IMG/VR virus record: IMGVR_UViG_3300037110_000029
Span: 1 to 20,135 of that record
Direction: 5' to 3' (one strand)
Origin: a virus
DNA: 20,135 bases
A program made the position numbers and the translations under genes. Below are positions 1,406 through 17,055 of the stretch, in pieces (positions within the stretch are counted from its first letter, which is position 1; each line of letters starts with the position of its first letter). Below the pieces are notes generated by a model. That model saw nothing but the letters and a program-made list of their open reading frames with translations, was not told the origin of the DNA and did no database searches.

Positions 1406-2758
1406 TTATAAATAATATCCAATAACACTTAAACTAACTAGAGTTGAAGTACTCAAACCCATTGCTGTCAATCTCACTGACATATTTTCAGCCACAATAG
1501 GAACAAACACTGTAAATTGATAATCAAAAATATCATTCGTACCAGCAACAGCATAAGACATATCTTTCCATTCCATATGTGTATATGACATATTATTAGC
1601 TCCTGAACAAAATCCTATTCTAAAAACTTCTCCAACTGGATTAGTGCCATTATCAACATTAACTCTTAATAATACTCCTGTAGCATTTACAGGCACATTA
1701 TAAGGTTTTTCTTGTGAATCGGTTTGTTCTGGTGAAAAATCTACCGTACAATAATCACAATTGTTAGGACCTAATGTAGATATCTTAACAGGTCCTACTG
1801 TTGGAATATTTCCAGCTGTAGTGTGGTCTATACCAGTATTTGTAGTTCCTATAGTTGTAAATACTTTCTGCCAATAAGTAATATATTCTAAAGTATTATA
1901 TGCCTTCTGTACACTCGTGTTTGGTGCTAACTTTCCATTACTATCAATCACTACATAAGCACCTGAACTAGGAACAAACGGAGTACCTATAACCGGAACG
2001 TCACCAGCAGCATATCCTGTAACCAATGCAGGCTTACTGACTAATCCTAATCCATCAGGAGCAACCATTACCTGTTGACCAGGTATTAATGTTGATTCTA
2101 TTTCAGCAACATTACCTGTCGCAATACCAGATACCAAAGCAGGTTGTGCAGATAATCCACCAGCACCTATCATAGCTTGCTGACCTACAGCATCTGTCAG
2201 GTCAACATCATTAAATAATAAATATCCAGCCTTGAGCCCTGCATACTCTGTAACGATATCGGCATCATAGAACTTTATCCAACTATTATATGGTGCCTGA
2301 ACTAAGCCTGACCAAAAATAAGCAGTTTGCTGATCCTTAGTATCTGCAGCCACAAAACATACATCACCTGCTTGCTGATTAGTGATATTATCTCTACAAG
2401 GGACTCCAGGTGATGTAGCTGATAAACTCAATACTACTGTTATATTTGCTGCACCAGAAATCCTTGTAACCATCGCAGAAGTCAATGGATTAGTAACCTG
2501 AAGTTTATTGTTATTATTAACAATGATAGTTGTATCATCTATCTTATTGTCCAAATAATCAGGAGCATCAGCATTGTTCATACTTACCAATCCAAAATTA
2601 TTCGCAGCCACAGCAGTCCATCCTACAGGAGTATTGAAATTATAAAATTTCAATTGATTATTAACAGTATCAAACCACAGTATCTGTGTATTTGCTGGTG
2701 CAGTAGCTTGCGATAACAGACCTACAACGAGTCCCAAATCCTTAGTAATTGTCGGCAT
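1406..2758 (-). CDS. Tail fibre or receptor-binding protein with tandem repeats
   Basis: A 450-aa protein rich in Thr, Asn, Val and Gly with almost no charged helices, typical of beta-structured phage fibres. The N-terminus (residues 1-50) has the 'ILWFDTVNNQLKFYN...W' pattern common at the start of phage tail fibre proteins. Residues 192-226 and 227-263 are two tandem copies of a roughly 36-residue unit beginning GQQ(A/V)M and containing PALV(S/T)G. The C-terminal 120 residues look like a compact beta domain with three cysteines (334, 337, 384) and may be the receptor-binding head. It follows the signal-peptide fibre gene after 20 non-coding bases and precedes the large truncated protein by 6. 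No SD is visible before the ATG. An exact receptor cannot be told from sequence. Confidence 0.7.
   Translation of the reverse strand: MPTITKDLGLVVGLLSQATAPANTQILWFDTVNNQLKFYNFNTPVGWTAVAANNFGLVSMNNADAPDYLDNKIDDTTIIVNNNNKLQVTNPLTSAMVTRISGAANITVVLSLSATSPGVPCRDNITNQQAGDVCFVAADTKDQQTAYFWSGLVQAPYNSWIKFYDADIVTEYAGLKAGYLLFNDVDLTDAVGQQAMIGAGGLSAQPALVSGIATGNVAEIESTLIPGQQVMVAPDGLGLVSKPALVTGYAAGDVPVIGTPFVPSSGAYVVIDSNGKLAPNTSVQKAYNTLEYITYWQKVFTTIGTTNTGIDHTTAGNIPTVGPVKISTLGPNNCDYCTVDFSPEQTDSQEKPYNVPVNATGVLLRVNVDNGTNPVGEVFRIGFCSGANNMSYTHMEWKDMSYAVAGTNDIFDYQFTVFVPIVAENMSVRLTAMGLSTSTLVSLSVIGYYL
1970..2185 (-). repeat. Two tandem ~36-residue coding repeats inside fibre gene
   Basis: Residues 192-226 and 227-263 of the 450-aa fibre protein align as two copies: GQQAMIG...LSAQPALVSG then GQQVMV...LVSKPALVTG, each ending with a proline before the next unit. 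A degraded third copy may follow (SSGAYVVIDSNGKL). Such repeats usually form successive turns or segments of a trimeric fibre shaft. Confidence 0.65.
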
Positions 2759-2778
2759 ATTAATATAATTTAAAATAA

Positions 2779-4674
2779 TTATTCTATATTCGTTTTACCT
2801 ATTTGATACATCGTAGTTGTGCTGGTAACTATAAACATTGATACACAACTATTGCCTGATGCTGGTACAGATATAGTTCCACTACCTGTACCAACTGCGT
2901 GTATAGAAGATTGATCGAATGAGATAGTGTACCCAATACTTCCTTGTGGAGAAATAATCAATACAACATAATTCCCTATCATACTTGTCGGATAAGGTGT
3001 TGAACCACTTATTGTTTGATTAGCTGTAGGAGTAAATGTGTATTGATTAGTACCAGCCAACAAATTAAATACGAATCCTGACGTGGCACCCGAACCTGCT
3101 GGATATTGATAAGAAGGCTGAAACGGCAAAGGATTTCCATTAATCATATAATGTGATCCAGTTGGAATATTGACATTACCCCCATTATCAACATTAAACA
3201 CAGTTGCAGTTAAATTCTTAAATTTTATAAAATTACCATTCCATTTTGTATTAACATCTGAAGTAACTGAAAGATCTATAAAATCACTCGATTCACTACC
3301 AATTACAGGACTTCCATAAACTTCATGTGTGATATTTAAAAAGGGTTTTGTAAGGGATGATAAATTAGAATTAACTATGTCAAAATTCAGAAATCCATTT
3401 GCTGGTTGGTTATTATAAATAATCGTAGCCATGCTAATAAGTCCTGCATCTTGAGGAGTAGATGAGGCTCCATTAATTAAATAATTCCCATAAAATGAAC
3501 CTGTGGGATTTTCTGCTAATCCTATTACATTGTTTGTATGTAACGATGATGAATAATTAGTAAAACTATAAAAATTTCCATCATAATTTAATCTTGTGCC
3601 ATGAACAGGGAATGTACTACTGTTGTCAAAAGAACCTGAATTTTGAAACGTATAAGGTGTATATTTATTTGTTGACCAATTCAATATGTCAGAAACAGGA
3701 GTCACTCCTCCGTGCGAAAGGACATATCCAACGTCTGGTATAGAACGTGCTGTATAATTAGCAGAATAATCAGCAGCATATAATAATCCTGTAGAACCTA
3801 TATTATCAGTTATAAGCATGTAAGGTGTTACCAAATTATTAAGATTAATGCTGCTTGTTATTGAGGTTATTGGTGTGGATGTTGACATAGAAGTTAAACT
3901 CATACCAGTACCACCACCACCACACGAAACAGAACTACCACCAGATGACATTTGAGCAACACCATCTGTCAAGGTCATCTGAGCAGGGTCAGTAAACCCA
4001 CTATTAATCTGAAATACACTTAATGGAGTTCCACTCGTACCTAAGTATAATTGAGAACCTCCATATGATGATGCACCATTAATAGCTGTATAACCTATAT
4101 TCAGAGTTCCTCCCAAACCATATGTATTAGTGCCTGTCGAAGCTATTCCATTATTGTAATTCGTACTTCCAGCAGATATTGCTGTTATAAAACCATTACT
4201 ATTTATAGTAATATTAGGATTGTTATAAGTTCCAGGAGTCAATGTTGATAATCCTAATATTGAAATCACTCCTGTTGACTGATTAAATGCTATCGGAGAA
4301 GTTGCTGATATTGATGTGAGTAATGAACTACCACCACTTTGAGTAGTCAACACAGGATATCCACCACTGATAAGATTTGTAGCATAAAAATTACCATCAA
4401 AACCAAGCCATCCTGTATTTGTAGGTGGATGAGTATAATCAGTGTAGAACCGATACGCACCTTTCGTTGACCAAGGTGAAAATGAAATCGAAGGATATCC
4501 TGTACCATAAAGGATTCCAGAAGTCACATTATTATAACTGTTAGTTATCAAGCTATCAAATGCTACACTGTTAGGAGTACAACCTGAACAGAAGTATCCT
4601 TCAATTTTACTCATCTGACAGAACGCTATGCTCGTCAGCATTATAAAGGTAATCAGAAAACCAATTCTTTTCAT
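2779..4674 (-). CDS. Tail-fibre-like protein with N-terminal Sec signal peptide
   Basis: This 631-aa protein opens with MKRIGFLITFIMLTSIAFCQ: two positive residues, a hydrophobic core at about residues 5-17 and a likely cleavage site near AFC|Q, a classic signal peptide layout and very like secreted proteins of Bacteroidota. It is not a good lipobox (I-A-F-C). The rest is Ser/Thr/Gly/Asn-rich beta sequence. The segment at 121-170, SISATSPIAFN followed by LTPGTY and INSNGFITAISAG, matches the style of phage tail fibres, as does RSIPDVGYV at 310-318. A CxxC (29-32) follows the signal region, and an SCGGGG stretch lies at 250-255. It sits between a 134-aa protein and the second fibre gene, with 15- and 20-base spacers. 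Either it is a virion fibre whose N-terminus derives from a host secreted protein, or it is truly exported by the infected cell. Confidence 0.7.
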   Translation of the reverse strand: MKRIGFLITFIMLTSIAFCQMSKIEGYFCSGCTPNSVAFDSLITNSYNNVTSGILYGTGYPSISFSPWSTKGAYRFYTDYTHPPTNTGWLGFDGNFYATNLISGGYPVLTTQSGGSSLLTSISATSPIAFNQSTGVISILGLSTLTPGTYNNPNITINSNGFITAISAGSTNYNNGIASTGTNTYGLGGTLNIGYTAINGASSYGGSQLYLGTSGTPLSVFQINSGFTDPAQMTLTDGVAQMSSGGSSVSCGGGGTGMSLTSMSTSTPITSITSSINLNNLVTPYMLITDNIGSTGLLYAADYSANYTARSIPDVGYVLSHGGVTPVSDILNWSTNKYTPYTFQNSGSFDNSSTFPVHGTRLNYDGNFYSFTNYSSSLHTNNVIGLAENPTGSFYGNYLINGASSTPQDAGLISMATIIYNNQPANGFLNFDIVNSNLSSLTKPFLNITHEVYGSPVIGSESSDFIDLSVTSDVNTKWNGNFIKFKNLTATVFNVDNGGNVNIPTGSHYMINGNPLPFQPSYQYPAGSGATSGFVFNLLAGTNQYTFTPTANQTISGSTPYPTSMIGNYVVLIISPQGSIGYTISFDQSSIHAVGTGSGTISVPASGNSCVSMFIVTSTTTMYQIGKTNIE

Positions 4675-4689
4675 ATCATTTATTTTAAA

Positions 4690-5094
4690 TTATAATACTA
4701 AAAATCCAGAGTCATCACCAGTTATTTCCATATTCCCTATACCGAGTTGTCCTAACTGTTCATAATAGTATCCTCCAGGCAAATTATACATCAAGTGTCC
4801 ACGATTATCTATTGTATAATATCCAGCATCTTCACCAATAACGATAAGTTCACCATTATCACTCATATCAAAGTTAGTAAGATACTTATCTCTATCACAC
4901 TTGATATACAAATCTCCTACACTAACAGGAACATAATCAAGAGAATTGATATCATTTTCATCTACAATCCCAACCTTCACATAATAAGGTGTATCGAGGT
5001 CAGGAACTGTATCTGTTGTAGAATTCAGAATCATCACGCCTATATTCGTTACAGCATTTACAGGATATTGTAATATGTCTAATGGTACATTCAT
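4690..5094 (-). CDS. Small baseplate- or fibre-associated protein, function unknown
   Basis: A 134-aa protein whose ATG overlaps the TGA of the J-like gene as ATGA, so translation is probably coupled to it. No family is recognised. Residues 74-85 (NFDMSDNGELIV) and 92-103 (YYTIDNRGHLMY) look like two copies of a short beta-hairpin unit, 'x-I-D-x-x-G-x-L-x-Y', a pattern I associate with small phage tail or fibre proteins. The first 60 residues are a mixed beta sequence with the YYVKVGIVD strand. There is no signal peptide or membrane segment. Position between the wedge genes and the fibres suggests a fibre connector or a small decoration protein; this is inference only. Confidence 0.65.
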   Translation of the reverse strand: MNVPLDILQYPVNAVTNIGVMILNSTTDTVPDLDTPYYVKVGIVDENDINSLDYVPVSVGDLYIKCDRDKYLTNFDMSDNGELIVIGEDAGYYTIDNRGHLMYNLPGGYYYEQLGQLGIGNMEITGDDSGFLVL

Positions 5095-6341
5095 AAATTT
5101 ATAGTGCTAATTATTGAACCAAAGTTGTTGTCCACTGAACCTGTATAATATACAGGATTCAAATTGCCAGCAGAGTCCTGAATTATATTGCCATCTAAAT
5201 CCTGCATTATGAACCCTCTGATACGAGGAACGTATCCGATAGGAACTGTGATATCATTATTTGGCAGAAAGTTCTTATCTGGCACGTATTTCACACCGTT
5301 CGCATTTTTTACTATATTTATCAGATTGACCCACTGTACAGTACTTGTATAATCCCAAAATCTAAAATCAAGATACTTGCCGAATGCCAGCTGTATATTC
5401 TGCATCACTGTATCTGGACTAATGTTATTATAAAGCTCTACACGAAATGATACATCGATAGGGAATATAAAGGCATTTATAAGACTCAAACCCACCGACT
5501 GAGTACCAATTAACCTTTGCTCAGTGAGACTGAAATATTGGTTGCCAAAATTCAATAAATTGTCAATGTCATTATCCGACAGTGCTATACCATTCTGTGT
5601 AATTATAGCCAACGTCAAAATACCATTATCATTTATTCCTGCGAACACAACTCGCAATACATCAGGATTAAATTGTTGAAAGATATTTGTATATTTATTC
5701 AAAGTCCCAGCAGTTAAGAAGTTTGGCGTTTGCTGAATACGAACTCTAAATACATCATCCTGTTCAACATCACGTCCTCCAGTGGCTGTATATTCATTGA
5801 CTACATACTTATGTCCTGTAGGAGCTGAAGCCATCATACTGATTGAAGCAGGAGGAACATTAGTATTACTTCCACTATCAACACTCTGAACCTTTGCATA
5901 TGTATATCCGAAGTTCAATATATCCTGATAGTTCTGATAACCTACAGAATTATTTACTGGATCGAGACCATTTATATCATTTTCTAAGATGAATTGGAAT
6001 CCACCAGAAGAAGTCATTATATTAGTGGCAGCAACATAAGTTGTTCCTGGTGTTGCAACTAATCTTACAAAGGTTGATGAAGCACTGGCTCCGAACCTCG
6101 CCAATACACCTTGACGAGCTGCTATGATATCCAAATCCTGACCATACGCAAACTCAGGGAACAAGTTAGATTCAAGAACGGCAACATCCTTAATCCCTTT
6201 CTGTAAAGGTTTTGCCATACCATATAAAACAGCATTGACGACACTTTCATCTGACACCTTACTTATCTTAGATGTCTTATTAATCATTATCTCGCTAATG
6301 TACTGCTTTATCTGTTGTATTGTTAAAACATTCGTTCTCAT
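5091..6341 (-). CDS. Baseplate wedge protein, gp6/gpJ-like (Baseplate_J family)
   Basis: This 416-aa protein has the expected layout of Baseplate_J proteins (P2 gpJ, Mu gp47, T4 gp6 core): an N-terminal helical part with YGQDLDIIAARQGVLAR (residues 66-82), then SSTFVRLVATPGTTY (88-102), where a beta domain starts, then GGRDVEQDDVFRVRI (188-202), which matches the family's 'GG.d.E.d...R.Ri' signature, and a C-terminal mixed domain. In contractile tails this protein dimerises to form the wedge ring that surrounds the hub and triggers sheath contraction. Its ATG overlaps the TGA of the LysM-gp25 gene as ATGA, and its own TGA overlaps the next start the same way. Length is within the usual range for the family. 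Confidence 0.88.
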   Translation of the reverse strand: MRTNVLTIQQIKQYISEIMINKTSKISKVSDESVVNAVLYGMAKPLQKGIKDVAVLESNLFPEFAYGQDLDIIAARQGVLARFGASASSTFVRLVATPGTTYVAATNIMTSSGGFQFILENDINGLDPVNNSVGYQNYQDILNFGYTYAKVQSVDSGSNTNVPPASISMMASAPTGHKYVVNEYTATGGRDVEQDDVFRVRIQQTPNFLTAGTLNKYTNIFQQFNPDVLRVVFAGINDNGILTLAIITQNGIALSDNDIDNLLNFGNQYFSLTEQRLIGTQSVGLSLINAFIFPIDVSFRVELYNNISPDTVMQNIQLAFGKYLDFRFWDYTSTVQWVNLINIVKNANGVKYVPDKNFLPNNDITVPIGYVPRIRGFIMQDLDGNIIQDSAGNLNPVYYTGSVDNNFGSIISTINL

Positions 6342-7267
6342 AGTGGCAAATTCTGTGTTATTTGTAATTGACTATAAACTGATTCCACTGTAACCTCTAA
6401 ATTCACAGCACCTCCGACTAAATTCAAATTTGAAATTGATACTGATTTGAACGTATCGTCCTTGGCTATCGTATTATATAACTGTCTAAACACTGCGGGA
6501 TACAGGAAAGATAGGTTTGCTCTATTAATTAACAATGATTTATCAATACCATCATTAGGAAATTCAGGACTGTCTCCCTTACAAAGTGAAAGTAATATCG
6601 CAAAGCCTTGAACAAAGGTCTGTTCAGGAGTCAACACTACAAAATCACTCACTTCCTCATCAAATTGAAAATACTGAGGTAAATCAATACCTAATATACT
6701 GTCTCCAACAATAGTATTAACGACACTTTGGATATTAAATACCTGGTCATTCTGATAATAGAACTTGAATATAGTCCCACCTTGACGAGTATAATCATCT
6801 TCTGCCAAGTCATTCTTAATAGCGAGGTCTGCCCAATCATCATCCGGGTTGCTTAATCCTGCCTGTAAAGCTATGTTCTCTATTGTCTGATTCTGTTTCA
6901 GAATATAATCAACTTCAATATTATTATTAAAATTATTATTAGTTATAGAGCTCCTCAACCATTTGGCTGAATTATTAATACTGTCTAACTTTACTGCCAT
7001 AGTATCCAGTGTATCAACTAAATCCCAAAACTCTACACTATTCAATGCATTAGAATTAAGTATTATAATCTCATTGAGCTGCTGAGATTGATTAATTAAT
7101 GATTGCAATTGATTAAAAGACGGCTGGTCTGGAACATTCACAGTGCCTGCATAATAGGCATAAATATTATCCGACTGTAAATTAATAAAGTTGTAAAAGT
7201 CGCTCAAGTATTGATTTACATCAAATCCTGTAATGCTTTCAAATTGTTCTAATATCGTCTGTATCAT
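6338..7267 (-). CDS. Baseplate wedge protein: LysM domain fused to gp25-like domain
   Basis: I place the start at the ATG at 7267 (309 aa), one base after the upstream TAA; a longer TTG start at 7288 would overlap the previous gene and is less likely. Residues 119-158 look like a LysM domain: YILKQNQTIENIALQ, then W145, then LAIKNDL, corresponding to the 'V..GDTL..IA' and 'W..L...N.L' pattern. Residues 205-298 look gp25-like: a helix, GDSPEFP, a second helical region, then SVSISNLNL and a final beta strand NLEVTVES. In T4 the LysM fold occurs in gp53 and gp25 is separate; both contact gp6 in the wedge core and join it to the sheath. The gene precedes the J-like gene with an ATGA overlap, as expected. 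The 1-118 region is helical and unassigned. Confidence 0.78.
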   Translation of the reverse strand: MIQTILEQFESITGFDVNQYLSDFYNFINLQSDNIYAYYAGTVNVPDQPSFNQLQSLINQSQQLNEIIILNSNALNSVEFWDLVDTLDTMAVKLDSINNSAKWLRSSITNNNFNNNIEVDYILKQNQTIENIALQAGLSNPDDDWADLAIKNDLAEDDYTRQGGTIFKFYYQNDQVFNIQSVVNTIVGDSILGIDLPQYFQFDEEVSDFVVLTPEQTFVQGFAILLSLCKGDSPEFPNDGIDKSLLINRANLSFLYPAVFRQLYNTIAKDDTFKSVSISNLNLVGGAVNLEVTVESVYSQLQITQNLPL

Positions 7268-7268
7268 A

Positions 7269-8057
7269 TTATAAGTGACTTTTAACAATCAATTCATTAC
7301 CAAACGTACTCATCAATCCTGTAGCAACCGTCTGAGCCGAATTCTGTATCACACCTGCTCCTAATGCTTTCCCTAAAGAATTACTGGAACTTCGTGATAC
7401 TGATTCAGCTGGCGATATCGCTGTCATACTAAGAGAATAATTCCATATCATATTTGAAGCCTGGTTCTGTGTGAAGTTTAATGACTTAACCTTCACCAAC
7501 CAGCTCTCTCCAAAGGTCGGATTATGAAAATATAATTTACGAGGCACGCCATTATCATTATCTACAGAAAGGTCACAGATAGATTGTAATATCTTCATAG
7601 ACCCATATCCCGTTTTAAACAAGGTACTGAAATTAGCTTGGTTTACCTTAAAATCAATGTCAGTCTTTTTACCCGTATATCCTTTCCCTGAAGTATTAAA
7701 ACCAAAGGTGCTAAAATTCAGTACATTATTGCCTATTAATAGACGGAAATTCCTCCCAAAACTACCAGAAATTGAAATATCTTTTGGTATAAAGGTATTT
7801 GTATTGACCACTGTAATGCCTCCAGAATTCTTCTTAATATTCGTAATTTGTGGTTCAGTCTGGGAAATCTGTGAAGGCATCACAGGGAAAGAAAAGTAAT
7901 TAATCACCTTCTCTGCATTATTCTTGCTTGTACCAACCAACTCAAATGCCATTATATAAACCTCGAAATCATTAGGATACAAAGAACTCAATCCAGCTCT
8001 TCCTATGGCTCCGAGAAGCTGAGTATATTGTGAAAGTGCTATTCCTGTATCTGTCAT
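7269..8057 (-). CDS. Baseplate hub/tail-tube adaptor protein (probable)
   Basis: A 262-aa protein with the segment FSFPVMPSQISQ (residues 55-66) followed by PKDISISGSFG (91-101). A first strand of the form 'F.v.P..i' followed by an 'i.i.G.fG' strand is shared by many tail tube initiator, distal tail and XkdP/gp53-type baseplate proteins. Later come GYGSMKILQSICD (150-162), PRKLYFHNP (172-180) and a strand-rich stretch MIWNYSLSMTAISP (203-216). It lies between the lysozyme gene and the LysM-gp25 gene, so it most likely bridges hub or tube and wedge. It starts with ATG five bases after the lysozyme stop, without an SD, and ends one base before the next ATG. The structural role is fairly safe; the exact equivalent in T4 or P2 is not. 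Confidence 0.6.
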   Translation of the reverse strand: MTDTGIALSQYTQLLGAIGRAGLSSLYPNDFEVYIMAFELVGTSKNNAEKVINYFSFPVMPSQISQTEPQITNIKKNSGGITVVNTNTFIPKDISISGSFGRNFRLLIGNNVLNFSTFGFNTSGKGYTGKKTDIDFKVNQANFSTLFKTGYGSMKILQSICDLSVDNDNGVPRKLYFHNPTFGESWLVKVKSLNFTQNQASNMIWNYSLSMTAISPAESVSRSSSNSLGKALGAGVIQNSAQTVATGLMSTFGNELIVKSHL

Positions 8058-8062
8058 AATTA

Positions 8063-8584
8063 TTATAATTTTGTATCTTTAATACGAGCCATCCAGCCCT
8101 GAAGATATTTACGATTCTTTGAATTTCTTACAGAACATGTAATGTAAAAATTTTGACGTTCAGCAATATATAACTGTAGAAGATTTAACTCGGTATTATT
8201 TATTGCTTCTACTGTCTTATCATCAATATTATTAGTTTGTTTAACTCCAAGTATAAACTGCATTAGCCTTGAAGCAGTTCCTGTACCTGAATTAATCGCC
8301 TGGTCAAATAAATGTAAGGAAATAAATTCGTCATGAATCTTACTTAGATTGAGCCTGTTATAAAAATTCAACTTGATAAATTCCTTTGCTTTATCCAAAT
8401 CCATTGATTTCAACTCATCTATATTTATCTCTTCATCAAAATCATTACAATCTACATATTCTACTCTTCTTAGATAAAAGATAGAAATTCCAAACTTAGG
8501 TGGAATCAAATCCTCTACTGAATGAGTTCGGTTCCAGTCCTCATGCTTTAAAATAATATCTATACCCTTATTGAATTCTAACAT
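8063..8584 (-). CDS. GH108-type lysozyme (N-acetylmuramidase) with peptidoglycan-binding C-terminus
   Basis: The 173-aa length fits single-module glycoside hydrolase family 108 proteins. Residues 4-41 follow the family's opening: a helix FNKGIDIILKHE, with Glu15 where the catalytic Glu of the 'EGGY' motif lies, and KFGIS (30-34) where the family has 'T.(F/Y)GI(S/T)'. FDQAINSG (93-100), the QFILGVKQ helix (109-116), RQNFY (143-147) and GWMARI (163-168) match the C-terminal peptidoglycan-binding part. It should cleave the glycan backbone of peptidoglycan. There is no signal peptide or membrane segment. Lying between spike and adaptor genes, it is probably carried in the baseplate for wall penetration, as the lysozyme domain of T4 gp5 is; a free endolysin role is the alternative. 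The EGG is altered to EDW. The start is preceded by a purine run (AAAAAGGGGAGT). Confidence 0.8.
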   Translation of the reverse strand: MLEFNKGIDIILKHEDWNRTHSVEDLIPPKFGISIFYLRRVEYVDCNDFDEEINIDELKSMDLDKAKEFIKLNFYNRLNLSKIHDEFISLHLFDQAINSGTGTASRLMQFILGVKQTNNIDDKTVEAINNTELNLLQLYIAERQNFYITCSVRNSKNRKYLQGWMARIKDTKL

Positions 8585-8649
8585 ACTCCCCTTTTTAAAA
8601 CCCTAAATTTACTACAAAATTTTAATTATTTTTAATAAAGTTATCTCTA

Positions 8650-9036
8650 TTAATCAGTATCTGGAACTTCAATGTTAAAAACCGTATTTGTAATGGAATT
8701 GGTCAATGACGTCACTTCACTTTCAATAGCAGGTAAAACAGCAGTGGCTGCAGCCTGAGACGCAGTTGCGTCAGCAAAAGGTGAAGGTGGAGGAGCAGCA
8801 GTTGAAGTTGTCAGAGTCAGCGCTTCCTGATTTAATTTATTAACCAATAATGTAACAGTATTATATAAAACCTGTGCTTCTTGATATGCCTGTATCGCAA
8901 TAGCGAATGCTGTAAATGCTTCAACAACTACTGATGGAAGCTTGTCTTTTATTGCCTGAGGTGTCTTATTCCAAACCTTAGCAATATCAAACATTCCCAT
9001 GTTAGGTGTTATCTTCAATATTTCATTAACTGTCAT
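8650..9036 (-). CDS. Small Ala/Thr-rich baseplate-region protein, function unknown
   Basis: I choose the ATG at 9036, which overlaps the TGA of the spike gene as ATGA, over a GTG at 9066 that would extend into the spike gene. The 128-aa product has two helical, Ala-rich parts (about 14-72 and 88-118) separated by a Thr/Pro linker ending in AAPPPSPF (80-87), and an acidic tail. No known family, signal peptide or cysteine motif is seen. The upstream sequence AAAATAAAGGGATT resembles the A-rich leaders before the tube and chaperone genes. Its place between spike and lysozyme suggests a hub accessory protein or a link between spike and lysozyme. It is followed by a 65-bp non-coding gap, AT-rich, in which I see no clear promoter or terminator. 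Confidence 0.6.
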   Translation of the reverse strand: MTVNEILKITPNMGMFDIAKVWNKTPQAIKDKLPSVVVEAFTAFAIAIQAYQEAQVLYNTVTLLVNKLNQEALTLTTSTAAPPPSPFADATASQAAATAVLPAIESEVTSLTNSITNTVFNIEVPDTD

Positions 9037-9761
9037 AATCCCTTTATTTTCGTTGCCACTATACACTGAGATATATCTCCAATAGGTGAACCTGGTGGTA
9101 GTCCAGGTGCTATGACTAATCCTTGATTTCCACCTAATAAGATAGTGTCAGCTGTTACGTCTACTACTCCTTCAGTATTGACGACAACATTCCCAGTATT
9201 CTGTATATTTACATCACCATCAACTGAAATGTTTACATCACCATTTACATTCAAATTCAGACTGGCACTTTTATTGGAATTTGAAAGGTTTATATTTAAA
9301 TCTCCACCACCATCATCTCCTATGACATTTATATTTAATTCACCTGTATCTCCGTGCCCAGATATAAGAACCAGTGCATTACCTAAACTTTTAAAGAGCT
9401 GAAATTCATTCTCACTTAGTGCTTGTGTCTCATCTCCTTTAGTCAGAACAGCTATGATTATCGGAACGTTCTTAATTAAATAATTTACATAAACCACCGC
9501 ACTACCTAAAAAATCGCCTGGTTGAGTATTTGAATCTTCATAATTTGAAGTCGGGAAGGTTATATTCTGTAAAGATGTCATGTCTATCTTTATATCATGA
9601 AACAACGCACCGTCCTCAGTCATTATCGAAACTGTCTCTTTATTGAAACACTCTTGTACAAAAGCATCCCTATTAAAATTAGAAGGGATGACAATATAAG
9701 CTATACCAACAGTGTACAGCGTGTTAGGAACCATCTCTCGTGTTATACCATCTTCAAACAT
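9033..9761 (-). CDS. Baseplate central spike protein (gp5/gpV/gp45-like) with OB fold and beta-helix
   Basis: The start is the ATG at 9761, overlapping the hub TGA by 8 bases (ATGTTTGA); a TTG at 9776 is unlikely. The 242-aa protein has an N-terminal beta domain (about 10-115) that fits an OB fold, then a run of alternating short strands from 140 to 210, such as LNINV, DLNINLS, LNLNVNGDVNISVDGDVNIQ, VVVNTEGVVDVTADTILLGG, typical of the trimeric beta-helix of contractile-tail spikes. The end contains NQGLVIAPGLPPGSP. The spike punctures the outer membrane on contraction. It lies directly after the hub gene as in P2, Mu and T4. No HxH iron-binding apex motif is seen, so the tip may be formed by another protein or by a different fold. 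The protein has no lysozyme domain, which matches the separate lysozyme gene nearby. Confidence 0.82.
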   Translation of the reverse strand: MFEDGITREMVPNTLYTVGIAYIVIPSNFNRDAFVQECFNKETVSIMTEDGALFHDIKIDMTSLQNITFPTSNYEDSNTQPGDFLGSAVVYVNYLIKNVPIIIAVLTKGDETQALSENEFQLFKSLGNALVLISGHGDTGELNINVIGDDGGGDLNINLSNSNKSASLNLNVNGDVNISVDGDVNIQNTGNVVVNTEGVVDVTADTILLGGNQGLVIAPGLPPGSPIGDISQCIVATKIKGL

Positions 9762-12114
9762 TGTATTTAGGATCAAATTGTAACCTATTCAAAAAGAAAT
9801 TAAATATATCAGGGTCTACATCGAATACACCCTTGGCAACCAACTTGCTCTTATTCTTCGTAACTCCATTGACTTGATAAGTATCGGTCAGCTGCTGTAT
9901 AATATAATCCGTATTCACAACATCAAAGTAACTAACTGCCTTAGACACTTCTTGATCTTTATTAGCCGCAGAAGGGAAAGTAGCCGAAGAACCATATACA
10001 AATCTTTCAATCATTCCTCTACTAACAGAGAGTGTCGTAATTCGTTCAATTGAACCTGATGAAATACTGAATGACTGACTAACTGCATCAACATAAAATA
10101 TCTCTTTCGTTCCTTTATGACGAACCCATGTACCTCTCTTTATACGACGGTCACCATTGATAATTATAGAACCATTACGAGTGAACGGCATGTAACTGTT
10201 ACAATCAATAATATACTTCAAATCCTGTAGAGCAGCCTTACGGAAATAATCAATATTTACATCCTTTTGTGCTTGCGATATTGCTTCATAAGATGTATAA
10301 ATACAAGTATCTTCTTTCTTCTTATTGCCCCATATCTTCGCATATGCTGGTAAGAATATGACAGGAAAGTTAGGGAGTGCTGAATCTTGACCTGTAAAAT
10401 TAAATTCTCTCGGTGTGTAACGATACCAAGTGAATATATTACTATCATTAAACTCTAATGAGTCAGTGATTATATCTGATTCCTCGATATCAATAACCAG
10501 TGACTGCTGTTGATATTCATCAGTACTCTTACTTGCAGATGACTTCTGTATAGGAGGATTATAACTATAATCAATCGCAACCGTATTATTTTTTAAAAAA
10601 CTTAATATTGCCGTCTTATTAAATGGTGGCTGACGCACGATTATAGTATATTGGTCTCCGAAAGTATCACCCCAAAACTCAACAAAAGGTTCTTGACATA
10701 TCTTTTGAAACTCATTATACAAACTTCCATCAGGATTCGCTACACTATTATCATTCAGTCGGCGATTATCTAAGATACTATCAATTGATATTTTGACTAT
10801 CTGCCATACACCATTCATAGCTTCCTCGCCAACATTATATTGAGTATCATCTTTCAATAACTTATATCGTGTACTAACACGGTCTCCATAAGCATTGAAT
10901 ACATTATTAGGAATAATACCCATGTAACTGCACTGATTTATAATAAACTGAATGTTAAACTTCAATGACCTGTTGACTTTGGCAAATAGTTCTTTATAAT
11001 TTTGATCATGAAAATTGCGTTTCACTAAATTATCACTATCGGCATCAGTATTGGCATAGAAGAATTGTGTAGAACCTGTTGTAAATAAAAACGGAAAGAT
11101 GAAATCACCATCATCAGTAAGTAACTTCATAAAGTCTCTTCCCATTATAGAAATAGATACATCATTACTTTCTGGAGAGGTCACTATCTTAGTGCTATCA
11201 ACCAATGCAATCATGTCATACACTTGATTTGGCAATTGATTAAAGGGAACTTCAAACAGTCTTTCAGTTTTCCCAGAATCATATTCTAATGCAAGCTTCT
11301 CAAACTTAATAAATACAAGATCATTAACATTTATTTTATTATGAAAGAAGAAATTGGTACGAACTTTAGAAACTGAATCGTGATGTACACTCGCTTCATA
11401 AAGAAGTTGGTCTAAATTCATATTCAATTCATCACCATATATATCTTCTATCGGAGCCATAGAAAGACTGAAACTCCCTCCAGCTTTAGAAGTGCTGGTA
11501 CTCACTGACTCCACAAAGCTCGTTACATTTATCAATTTATTTAAAGTACGAATCCACATCCACACAGATATGTTAGGATAGAGCTCAGTGACTGTATCAT
11601 TATTATTAACATTATATTTAGTGGCCGATATATACTTAGGGTCTTGTAATAACTTGACAAGTTGATCATCAAGAAATGTAAGAGTATTGGATTCGTCTAC
11701 AACAGTGTTTACTAATAATCCAGCCAAATTTGATACATTTGCTCCCGTTTTGGGAATCAAAATTACTGTTCCGGAAACTATTAAGTCAATGAAAGAATCT
11801 TGTGAATTTATATCTAAAAATCCTAAATTCAAATAATCTTCAGTCGCAGAAATTAACAAACTATTATTCTTTTTATCAGTTAGTGTATAATTCTCTATAA
11901 TTCGCTGATAATTAATTTTACCCGTGCCACCGTCATAACTCAGGAATGAATATAAGTCAGGTTGCGTGCTTGTAGATAAAAATGGATTATTCGCCACAGG
12001 AGCACCATTGAAATCAATAACACACCCATTCCAAATAAATGTAGGGTCTTTTATCAATTCAACTATACTTGTAATTGATGAGTCTGTCTTATATTTTATG
12101 TAAGGAACTGGCAT
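9754..12114 (-). CDS. Baseplate hub protein (gp27/gpD/gp44-like)
   Basis: A 786-aa protein placed directly before the spike gene. Residues 477-498 carry VEFWGDTFGDQYTIIVRQPP, close to the 'E.wGDt.gd.f.l.vRqPPf' segment that marks many hub proteins of the gp27/gpD type. Residues 552-570 (SLEFNDSNIFTWYRYTPRE) and 659-700, with RGTWVRHKGTKEIFYVDAVS and a TTLSVSRG strand, match the later tube-like domain of the same family. The hub trimer attaches the tail tube to the spike. At 786 aa it is large for this family (P2 gpD and T4 gp27 are about 390), with an extra N-terminal part of roughly 200 residues whose role I cannot assign. It begins 4 bases after the tape measure stop. Confidence 0.82.
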   Translation of the reverse strand: MPVPYIKYKTDSSITSIVELIKDPTFIWNGCVIDFNGAPVANNPFLSTSTQPDLYSFLSYDGGTGKINYQRIIENYTLTDKKNNSLLISATEDYLNLGFLDINSQDSFIDLIVSGTVILIPKTGANVSNLAGLLVNTVVDESNTLTFLDDQLVKLLQDPKYISATKYNVNNNDTVTELYPNISVWMWIRTLNKLINVTSFVESVSTSTSKAGGSFSLSMAPIEDIYGDELNMNLDQLLYEASVHHDSVSKVRTNFFFHNKINVNDLVFIKFEKLALEYDSGKTERLFEVPFNQLPNQVYDMIALVDSTKIVTSPESNDVSISIMGRDFMKLLTDDGDFIFPFLFTTGSTQFFYANTDADSDNLVKRNFHDQNYKELFAKVNRSLKFNIQFIINQCSYMGIIPNNVFNAYGDRVSTRYKLLKDDTQYNVGEEAMNGVWQIVKISIDSILDNRRLNDNSVANPDGSLYNEFQKICQEPFVEFWGDTFGDQYTIIVRQPPFNKTAILSFLKNNTVAIDYSYNPPIQKSSASKSTDEYQQQSLVIDIEESDIITDSLEFNDSNIFTWYRYTPREFNFTGQDSALPNFPVIFLPAYAKIWGNKKKEDTCIYTSYEAISQAQKDVNIDYFRKAALQDLKYIIDCNSYMPFTRNGSIIINGDRRIKRGTWVRHKGTKEIFYVDAVSQSFSISSGSIERITTLSVSRGMIERFVYGSSATFPSAANKDQEVSKAVSYFDVVNTDYIIQQLTDTYQVNGVTKNKSKLVAKGVFDVDPDIFNFFLNRLQFDPKYNV

Positions 12115-14809: not shown

Positions 14810-14846
14810 TTCTTTATTTTTACGACGATAATACTTACAATTTTTA
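14810..14846 (-). repeat. Spacer cassette copy between tube and chaperone genes
   Basis: On the minus strand this reads TAAAAATTGTAAGTATT, then a 7-base insert ATCGTCG relative to the other copy, then TAAAAATAAAGAA just before the chaperone start. The first TAA is the tube stop codon. The order TAAAAATTG, GTATT, AAAAATAAAGAA is the same as in the sheath-tube spacer. Confidence 0.7.
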
Positions 14847-15329
14847 GAACAGTATCGGGTCGAGATATGTACCTGACATATCACTTCCACTGATTTGTCC
14901 TTCTGTTATATCAAATGACTGACTATCCATAAATGCATTATAGATGACACCTATTTTTTCCTTACCTACCTGAGTGACAACTCCGGTCGTCTGGTCTTGT
15001 TCCTCAATTATCTTACGATAAAGATGAATATTGACACCGCTCTCAGTCAGCAGTAAAGTATTCTGAAAATCCTCCACGCTGTTATTTACTGTACGATTTA
15101 TAAAGGGATTAGGAATTGTACCTAACTTAGTAAAGTCAATAAAATAACTTGAAGCTGTGAACGAGCAATTAATATTCAGAGGAGGTTTCTCACTCGCTAT
15201 TAAGGTGCCGATACCACGTACATCACCACGACCTATATTCTCAGTTGCCCTGAAGGTCTTCATTTTGCCTATTGCTTGACCACCAATCTCAATTATTGCG
15301 AGGGGTGCCGTTAATGTCTTTGTTGCCAT
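14844..15329 (-). CDS. Tail tube protein
   Basis: A 161-aa protein directly after the sheath gene. Its length and beta-rich layout match contractile-tail tube proteins (P2 gpFII, T4 gp19): an N-terminal strand LAIIEIGGQAIGKMKTFRAT (residues 10-29), the region RGDVRGIGTLIASEKPP (34-50), a beta-hairpin region, then KIGVIYNAFMDSQSFDITEG (125-144) near the C-terminus. It should form stacked hexamers inside the sheath and carry DNA at injection. The ATG has the A-rich leader AAAAATAAAGAA immediately before it. The gene has its own spacer on both sides, unlike the overlapping baseplate genes, which fits strong independent translation of an abundant protein. Confidence 0.85.
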   Translation of the reverse strand: MATKTLTAPLAIIEIGGQAIGKMKTFRATENIGRGDVRGIGTLIASEKPPLNINCSFTASSYFIDFTKLGTIPNPFINRTVNNSVEDFQNTLLLTESGVNIHLYRKIIEEQDQTTGVVTQVGKEKIGVIYNAFMDSQSFDITEGQISGSDMSGTYLDPILF

Positions 15330-15360
15330 TTCTTTATTTTTAATACTTTACCAATTTTTA
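15330..15360 (-). repeat. Spacer cassette copy between sheath and tube genes
   Basis: Minus-strand reading: TAAAAATTGGTAAAGTATT then AAAAATAAAGAA and the tube ATG. The TAA is the sheath stop. It matches the tube-chaperone spacer almost base for base apart from small insertions, so the two are probably duplicated or selected for the same job, such as an A-rich translation enhancer. Confidence 0.7.
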
Positions 15361-17055
15361 TGATAACATAAATCCTGTCATGAAAATTTGATCGACTTCT
15401 TCATTAGGATAGAATCCGTACTGAACGAAATATGCAGTTCCAACAACCGTGACAACAGGCTGAGTAAATGATAATATCAGGTTATCAACCAACGGATTTG
15501 CAGTTACTGATTTCAACTTACCTATTGTCCAATCACGAATATAAGCAGTAGAAAGGGTGTTTCGATTAGTACCACTGGGGTTACTAAATAATTCCTTCTT
15601 TCCATCGACAATAAATCCATTGTTCAATGCAGCAGAGATACGGGTGAGCTGTACTATATATGATGTTCCATCGGGATTTATATCATTCTGACTCAACTGT
15701 AATGAATTCACGTCATCAAGAATGATAAACTTCTGAAAGTCATCGTCATAATAGGTTGCAAAGATACCGATTTCAACAGACTGCTCCATCTCTTTTGGTA
15801 AAAGTAAATGAACCTCACCATCAATTGCAATAGTTTTGAAAGTTGAAGGAACTTGAGGTGCGAGTCCACAAGTACGTCCCAAGCATATCGCTGTCTTATA
15901 TAACTGATCCCACACTCGATATCCTACTCCTGTAAGATTTGAATTCTTTTGTACCCCACCATGAACGACCACTACACGTTCCGAGTTCAATTTATAAACT
16001 GAATCTGCTGAACTGTAAGTCACTAATTGTCCGAGAGAATTGAGATTAAAGTGAGCACTGTCAAATCCTCCACCGACCCAAAGGAATTTCATGAATTTTG
16101 CCTGGTTCAATATATGACTGAGATACATGAAATTGGTCACACCAGCAGCATTATTTCCGTACTGATCAGACAAGATGAAGTTATATCCAAGGTTCGTGAC
16201 GGCATCGAGAACAGCATTTATACCAGCAGTGTTGAAAGTTTCAGTACCACCAACCGCTAATGTATTTCCGGAGTATAATACTAAGTCAGTTGATGCAAGT
16301 AACCCAGTTCCAGTGATTGAACTTGATTGAACGATGAAATACGTATTGAAATTCGGGTCAGTCTGCATCCAAGCCAGCAAGTCAGTGATACCACTAAATT
16401 CTATTGATTTAGCAACCAATAAAGGATTAGTCATATTTGCAGCTATACCATCATAAGGTAAACCATCACTGTTAATTGAAGCAGGTGGAATACCTTTAAA
16501 GGTCCCCTGCCAGAACGACAATATATATTTACTTGTATTGACAACTCCTGGAGACAAGGTGAACGCATATCCTTTTGAAAGGACTTCATTTGTACCATTC
16601 AATACCTGTGCACCATTTGCTATCAATCCTTCATCAAATGTATTAATTACAATCGTTCCACCTGCATACCCTCCACCCTTCGGTGAAAAGGTTAATGTCG
16701 CAGGAGTGGTCGTTGCAGCACGAGTATAAAATATTGTCGCTACTCCATCAACACCCAAATCCGGATTAAATAATGGATCAGCGAGCAACCACCAGTATCC
16801 ACCCTTTACAAAAGAACGGAAGTCAGTGATATTATCAAATTTATAAACTGATTTTTTACCTTGAGTCCTGGTGCCAAGGATACCAGCTCCTCCACCATAT
16901 GAATCACCACCAGCTCCAGGTTCCAATCCTGTATCAATTATCAATACATTACCTGTCGCACTTACTAATGGTGTGCTCTGATTGCCACCAGATATATCTG
17001 AATAAACTCCTGGAAGAACTACTTTCTGACCATTAAATACAAATGTTTGTGCCAT
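15358..17055 (-). CDS. Tail sheath protein
   Basis: A 565-aa protein with the family's N-terminal PGVYS (residues 15-19), and a C-terminal part with RDWTIGKLKSV and a final VGTAYFVQYGF-type strand. The expected multi-domain build is present: an N-terminal arm, variable Gly/Thr-rich insertion domains (about 40-200), a central alpha/beta region with VGGGFDSAHFNL and VVVVHGG, and a conserved C-terminal domain. Sheath subunits contract to drive the tube through the envelope. It is followed by the tube gene, the normal order in P2- and T4-type phages. It starts with ATG at 17055 after the longest gap in the window, which may hold a promoter. No SD is visible. Confidence 0.92.
   Translation of the reverse strand: MAQTFVFNGQKVVLPGVYSDISGGNQSTPLVSATGNVLIIDTGLEPGAGGDSYGGGAGILGTRTQGKKSVYKFDNITDFRSFVKGGYWWLLADPLFNPDLGVDGVATIFYTRAATTTPATLTFSPKGGGYAGGTIVINTFDEGLIANGAQVLNGTNEVLSKGYAFTLSPGVVNTSKYILSFWQGTFKGIPPASINSDGLPYDGIAANMTNPLLVAKSIEFSGITDLLAWMQTDPNFNTYFIVQSSSITGTGLLASTDLVLYSGNTLAVGGTETFNTAGINAVLDAVTNLGYNFILSDQYGNNAAGVTNFMYLSHILNQAKFMKFLWVGGGFDSAHFNLNSLGQLVTYSSADSVYKLNSERVVVVHGGVQKNSNLTGVGYRVWDQLYKTAICLGRTCGLAPQVPSTFKTIAIDGEVHLLLPKEMEQSVEIGIFATYYDDDFQKFIILDDVNSLQLSQNDINPDGTSYIVQLTRISAALNNGFIVDGKKELFSNPSGTNRNTLSTAYIRDWTIGKLKSVTANPLVDNLILSFTQPVVTVVGTAYFVQYGFYPNEEVDQIFMTGFMLS

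Follow-up and report, generated by a model that had tools for sequence, protein, structure and literature searches.

The superinfection-blocking protein Llp of phage T5 is a small lipoprotein with a lipobox, and its signal-bearing gene lies beside receptor-binding genes. In Bacteroidota, a Gln at position +1 is the mark of signal peptidase I substrates (Bochtler 2018, PMC5837995), and cyclization of this residue stabilizes the exported proteins (PMC10653852). Porphyromonas gingivalis phages (Nixviridae) have five Q-rule genes of unassigned function, which the relevant passages of their description read as envelope-modifying while leaving fibre character unstated (PMC10367356). Bartlau et al. 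report that lyase-domain proteins of the phages Ingeline and Nekkels carry 'signaling peptides' and place such enzymes on tails, and the passages concerned leave the conflict between a signal and a tail location undiscussed (PMC8776804). Benler et al. counted the lack of signal peptides in favour of variable proteins having come from phages (PMC6199706). In the openly accessible literature we found no paper that describes or explains Sec-signalled tail fibres as a class.

The window, which is the whole stretch of DNA analyzed here, is a 20,135-base IMG/VR virus fragment carrying a contractile-tail module with genes for the sheath, tail tube, tape measure, tube initiator, lysozyme, baseplate J and further baseplate proteins. 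The gene for the fibre-like protein P0001 occupies a variable slot in this module, with gpJ and a small conserved protein on one side and a conserved baseplate gene on the other. Identification of the sheath, tail-tube initiator, baseplate J and lysozyme bears out the original prediction that the gene sits in a tail operon. The features of the locus are:

15358..17055, minus strand: tail sheath (PHROG 279); contractile tail of the Bacteroidota-phage type
5091..6341, minus strand: baseplate J-like protein (gpJ), which opens the fibre slot (Pfam PF04865, 8.5e-15; PHROG 6, 1.1e-25)
4690..5094, minus strand: 134-aa protein, conserved after gpJ in several relatives (tblastn: L014, L025, L009, L058, L053)
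4675..4694, minus strand: AT-rich leader TATAATTTAAAATAAATGAT, directly upstream of ATG1 and supporting a start there
4615..4674, minus strand: predicted Sec signal peptide MKRIGFLITFIMLTSIAFC, residues 1-19, plus Q20 (direct translation; rule-based call with null rates)
2779..4674, minus strand: fibre-like protein P0001, 631 aa, in the variable fibre slot
3136..3228, minus strand: fibre motif, residues 483-513 of P0001 (VDNGGNVNIPTGSHYMINGNPL region), weakly common to the signal-bearing fibres of the related phages L031 and L080
1406..2758, minus strand: 450-aa fibre with the usual signal-free N-terminus, encoded next to P0001
2..1399, minus strand: baseplate protein, cut by the window edge, which closes the fibre slot (tblastn, 29-34% over ~450 aa in many relatives)

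The sheath is 28-39% identical to those of Chryseobacterium phage MA9V-3, Bacteroides phages and a human-gut phage contig, and these relatives make a Bacteroidota host likely for the window phage. The fibre at 1406-2758 begins with ~45 residues that form the conserved signal-free fibre N-terminus of this phage group (tblastn, 36-54% over 27-47 aa in L015, L053, L005, L055 and L008). P0001 resembles this neighbor and other ordinary caudoviral fibres, such as gp048-050 of phage phi17:2, in its operon place, low-complexity composition and modular C-terminus, but those fibres have no signal. A GH108-type lysozyme at 8063-8584 also lies inside the baseplate operon; it receives no signal call in our scan and is probably a tail-associated lysin.

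Read on the minus strand from 4674 down to 4615, the DNA translates to MKRIGFLITFIMLTSIAFCQ, which is residues 1-20 of the 631-aa ORF at 2779-4674. The N-terminus of P0001 reads MKRIGFLITFIMLTSIAFC/QMSK, where the slash is the predicted cut: K2 and R3 are followed by an uncharged core (I4-A17), by A17-F18-C19 and then by Q20, so that Ala stands at -3, Cys at -1 and Gln at +1. The n-, h- and c-regions and the +1 Gln are like those of Bacteroidota Sec/signal peptidase I substrates, from which P0001 differs in being phage-encoded in a tail operon and in having Cys, not the usual Ala, at -1. Signals were called by a home-made rule (n-region charge, an 8-residue core, and a small residue followed by Gln) and not by SignalP. 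The rule calls the P0001 signal at 2.92 KD and places the cut just before Q20; among internal Met positions in related phages it gives 5 calls in 4510 (0.11%), and it fires on 0.09% of random N-termini with the composition of mature P0001, and on 1.3% of shuffles of P0001 residues 2-40. Translation, rule-based call and null rates agree with the Sec signal first proposed for these 20 residues (K2 R3, hydrophobic core, AFC/Q), and P0001 very probably carries a functional export signal.

The rule-based scan finds no convincing signal on any other gene of the window. Its one further call, on the tail-tube protein at 14844-15329 (MATKTLTAPLAIIEIGG/Q), has a weak core and was set aside as a false positive. 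By inspection, I16-A17-F18-C19 contains no lipobox (G/A/S before Cys), which rules out a lipoprotein blocker; P0001 shares with T5 Llp a signal and the nearness of receptor-binding genes, but it is a 631-aa protein and has no lipobox. NCBIfam detects no type IX C-terminal sorting domain in P0001 or in seven sister proteins, and P0001 is ruled out as T9SS cargo on that ground.

Translation might instead begin at Met21, leaving the upstream codons non-protein, and Met21 does follow the predicted cut and Q20 immediately. The AT content of the 20 bases ahead of ATG1 is 95%, and of those ahead of Met21 45%, where true starts in the window average 81% and internal ATGs 62% (sd 9). This base composition indicates that ATG1 is the start and Met21 is not. 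The sequence before Met21 is coding-like and unlike any start in the window phage, and a start there would also open a gap of 75 bp in an operon whose genes are tightly packed, so we give this alternative hardly any credence.

Mature P0001 has 612 aa, of which S+T+G+N make up 48%. It has no family match in PHROGs, Pfam, NCBIfam or PDB and no homologues in the phage collection, viral contigs, genome contigs or 47 related records, the latter being weak negatives since a fibre is fast-evolving. A plasmid search gave no Bacteroidota match. Predicted structures of the whole protein and of its last 132 residues have pLDDT values of 33 and 32, too low to be usable. Residues 483-513 match the L031 and L080 fibres at 48-53% over 30-31 aa (blastp in a small set, E 0.009-0.019). 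We infer that P0001 is a fibre from its position, composition and company, and as the protein is an orphan, its putative function is assigned by analogy of position and architecture. The original description of a textbook Sec signal on a fibre-like tail-operon protein is upheld, and export is its natural reading.

About 55 distinct relatives of the window phage were gathered with a gpJ profile; a scan of genomes with the same profile found no prophage relatives. Seven of these phages encode fibre-like proteins with strict Q-rule signals, six of them in the slot and one just behind it:

L005, slot: 417 aa
L029, slot: 229 aa
L031, slot: 1998 aa, with phage fibre matches
L048, slot: 948, 770 and 155 aa, with PHROG tail-fibre matches
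L070, slot: 319 aa
L080, slot: 864 and 728 aa
L068, 13261-16923, just behind the closing baseplate gene: 1220 aa

The mature parts of these proteins are mostly unrelated, and several have recognized tail-fibre or collagen-like stretches. The feature is thus present in roughly one in seven phages of the group, on different proteins. A Fisher test also places signals preferentially in the slot (11/73 versus 28/771 elsewhere, P 2e-4), with a loose rule that counts spanin-like membrane proteins and false positives as well; because of this looseness we rely on the strict list instead.

Within the 1220-aa fibre of L068 lies a GDSL lipase/acylhydrolase domain (Pfam 1.8e-15) that could have esters of the host surface as its substrates. 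In L048 (6521-14475), a run of signal-bearing proteins (948, 370, 770, 406 and 155 aa) replaces the single fibre gene; it includes collagen-like repeats and an LVIVD-like repeat region, and three of its proteins follow the Q-rule.

Searching with the N-terminus of L031 brought up Cellulophaga phage phi19:1; a match of the same N-terminus to crAss001 was discarded, as it lies on the wrong strand. In phi19:1, the N-termini of gp101-104 read, in order, MKKIFSILILLSCFYINA/Q, MKKTIYILSILLLTISGVSA/Q, MKQTISIVLFFILSLGLNA/Q and MRNIVLILLFFNISFSFG-K; GenBank notes record each of these proteins as structural, with experimental MS/MS evidence. Proteins gp085-087 of phi18:3 and gp091-094 of phi10:1 are likewise signal-bearing and MS/MS-detected according to their GenBank notes. 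This amounts to 11 signal-bearing fibre/lyase proteins with MS/MS notes in three phages of two families, 10 of them with Q-rule sites; their presence in virions is taken from the GenBank notes. Within the stretches examined, none of 19 other structural proteins of phi19:1 and phi18:3 has a signal (17 with a bare MS/MS note, plus capsid and tape-measure proteins noted as virion parts). Protein gp090 of phi10:1 has no signal either; gp088 of that phage, incomplete in its stretch, lay outside the scan. For Bacteroidota phages, the records contradict the original premise that fibres of the virion ought to stay unexported.

The same kind of cassette is present in phi19:3, phi13:2, phi46:3, Nekkels and Ingeline. 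Like P0001, the cassette proteins (phi19:1 gp101-104, phi10:1 gp091-095, phi18:3 gp085-087, Nekkels, Ingeline) are large and fibre-like and combine a short, signal-bearing and mostly Q-rule N-terminal module with a variable C-terminal part. They differ in lying outside the tail module in some phages and in being the only ones with recorded virion detection, and they have no sequence similarity to P0001: all-against-all blastp gave no match, including in the N-terminal module. In Ingeline (L093, Ingeline_1) the cassette at 2615-11409 follows the integrase, and in phi18:3 (L084) that at 31108-40734 lies between cpn10 and endolysin genes, both away from the tail genes.

The main rival to an exported fibre that joins the virion is a Sec-exported protein acting free or bound to the cell surface, for example as a depolymerase, adhesin, receptor blocker or decoy, that is released or displayed before lysis, with the Cellulophaga MS/MS records reflecting co-purification. 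The cassettes move between unrelated virion types that share a host, they stand outside the tail module in Pachyviridae and Ingeline, and they have lyase annotations, all of which would suit such a factor, as would the tandem of several signal-bearing proteins in L048. The Q-rule proteins of the P. gingivalis phages, thought in the passages that treat them to modify the envelope (PMC10367356), point the same way. However, the 11 signal-bearing proteins were recorded alongside ordinary virion proteins in three phages of two families, and most of the myophage cases are located within the baseplate operon, flanked by gpJ and the baseplate gene that follows. We regard a free factor as possible but doubtful.

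Substitution patterns bear on whether the signal is used at all. Among the Cellulophaga phages, the gp102 signal shows no non-synonymous changes against 4-5 synonymous ones, and that of gp103 has two or three amino-acid changes with its signal character retained; by these counts the signal is under purifying selection. The L031 and L080 signals are identical at 9 of 18 positions and differ by a 3-aa indel, both ending in NA/Q, while conservation is much higher in the mature part (75% over 696 aa overall). The gp102 and gp103 changes, together with the L031/L080 drift around a kept cut site, suggest evolution as used, cleaved signals and not as anchors or relics. The signal-bearing module of gp102, 118 aa long, also shows 82-100% identity across Assiduviridae (sipho) and Pachyviridae (podo) phages.

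The original prediction had considered that the gene was captured from a host and its signal is a relic. The signal could then be inherited from a host secreted protein and unused, the product folding or trimerizing too fast for export and being assembled in the cytoplasm. P0001 is an orphan, so a host source is possible, and Bacteroidota hosts hold many secreted fibre-like proteins. An exact-peptide genome scan found no host-gene relative of P0001, although it is insensitive and reaches close relatives only, and lends no support to the capture. Charge, core and cut-site Gln are retained across unrelated proteins, the gp102 signal is preserved as described above, and the mature parts of the sister proteins resemble phage fibres; signal character is also kept between L031 and L080 despite their drift. 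An unused relic seems improbable.

The hydrophobic N-terminus could also stay uncleaved and anchor the fibre in the virion or a membrane, which had been offered as another outcome. Fibres of phi17:2 that share C-terminal regions with gp101, gp103 and gp104 have different N-termini without a signal, so the signal module stands at an adaptor position, and mounts with and without a signal are exchanged on shared fibre domains. An anchor with a structural role would be expected to keep its sequence, yet the L031/L080 signal drifts and changes length while its cut site is kept, and a Q-rule site would be pointless without cleavage. An anchor is accordingly a very unlikely reading.

Our preferred reading, put forward tentatively and at somewhat less than even confidence, is that P0001 is an exported fibre of a Bacteroidota-infecting myophage that joins or accompanies the particle at lysis. 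The sequences show the signal, its start codon, its Q-rule site and the place in the fibre slot, and they show that the feature recurs in Bacteroidota phages, related ones and others. P0001 would be made in the tail operon and addressed to the periplasm via the host Sec translocase, signal peptidase I would cleave it between C19 and Q20, and a host glutaminyl cyclase would probably cap the new N-terminal Gln. With no lipobox and no type IX sorting domain, it probably goes no further than the periplasm. Once holin, endolysin and spanin have opened the envelope, the particles could encounter the accumulated mature fibre; alternatively, the fibre might bind wall and glycan debris through which particles pass. 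It would then be carried on the particle, serving as an accessory fibre with a receptor-binding or depolymerase role. Support for the export signal is good; actual export and attachment at lysis are inferred. Several points weigh against this route. The cassette in Ingeline and Pachyviridae adjoins integrase or lysis genes and not tail genes, as a secreted accessory factor might; the -1 residue of P0001 is Cys, which is less usual than Ala; and we know of no adaptor for docking an exported fibre.

It is conceivable, though we would not lean on it, that Bacteroidota phages more generally have a second virion assembly route, in which Sec-exported fibres and depolymerases mature in the periplasm and are loaded only at lysis. 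With such a route, fibre cassettes could pass from one tail type to an unrelated one, and disulfide-bonded or host-glycan-binding fibres would be kept out of the cytoplasm. The rule that phage tail proteins lack signals would fail in a major gut and sea phylum, and annotation pipelines would be misfiling signal-bearing fibre genes as host genes. A periplasmic stage of phage assembly would be testable in the cultured Cellulophaga phages.

Further Q-rule proteins of ~230 aa are encoded beyond the tail genes in three relatives (L005:19055-19765, L027:18802-19503 and L028:20083-20778). Another relative, L002 (MT835500.1, flagged unverified), has baseplate J joined to a long downstream fibre-like region in a single 2696-aa reading frame at 30341-38431. 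In the same record, the gene order that is conserved behind the tail tube is broken at 21315-22313 by an ORF whose start resembles a CxxC zinc finger and which is possibly a homing endonuclease.
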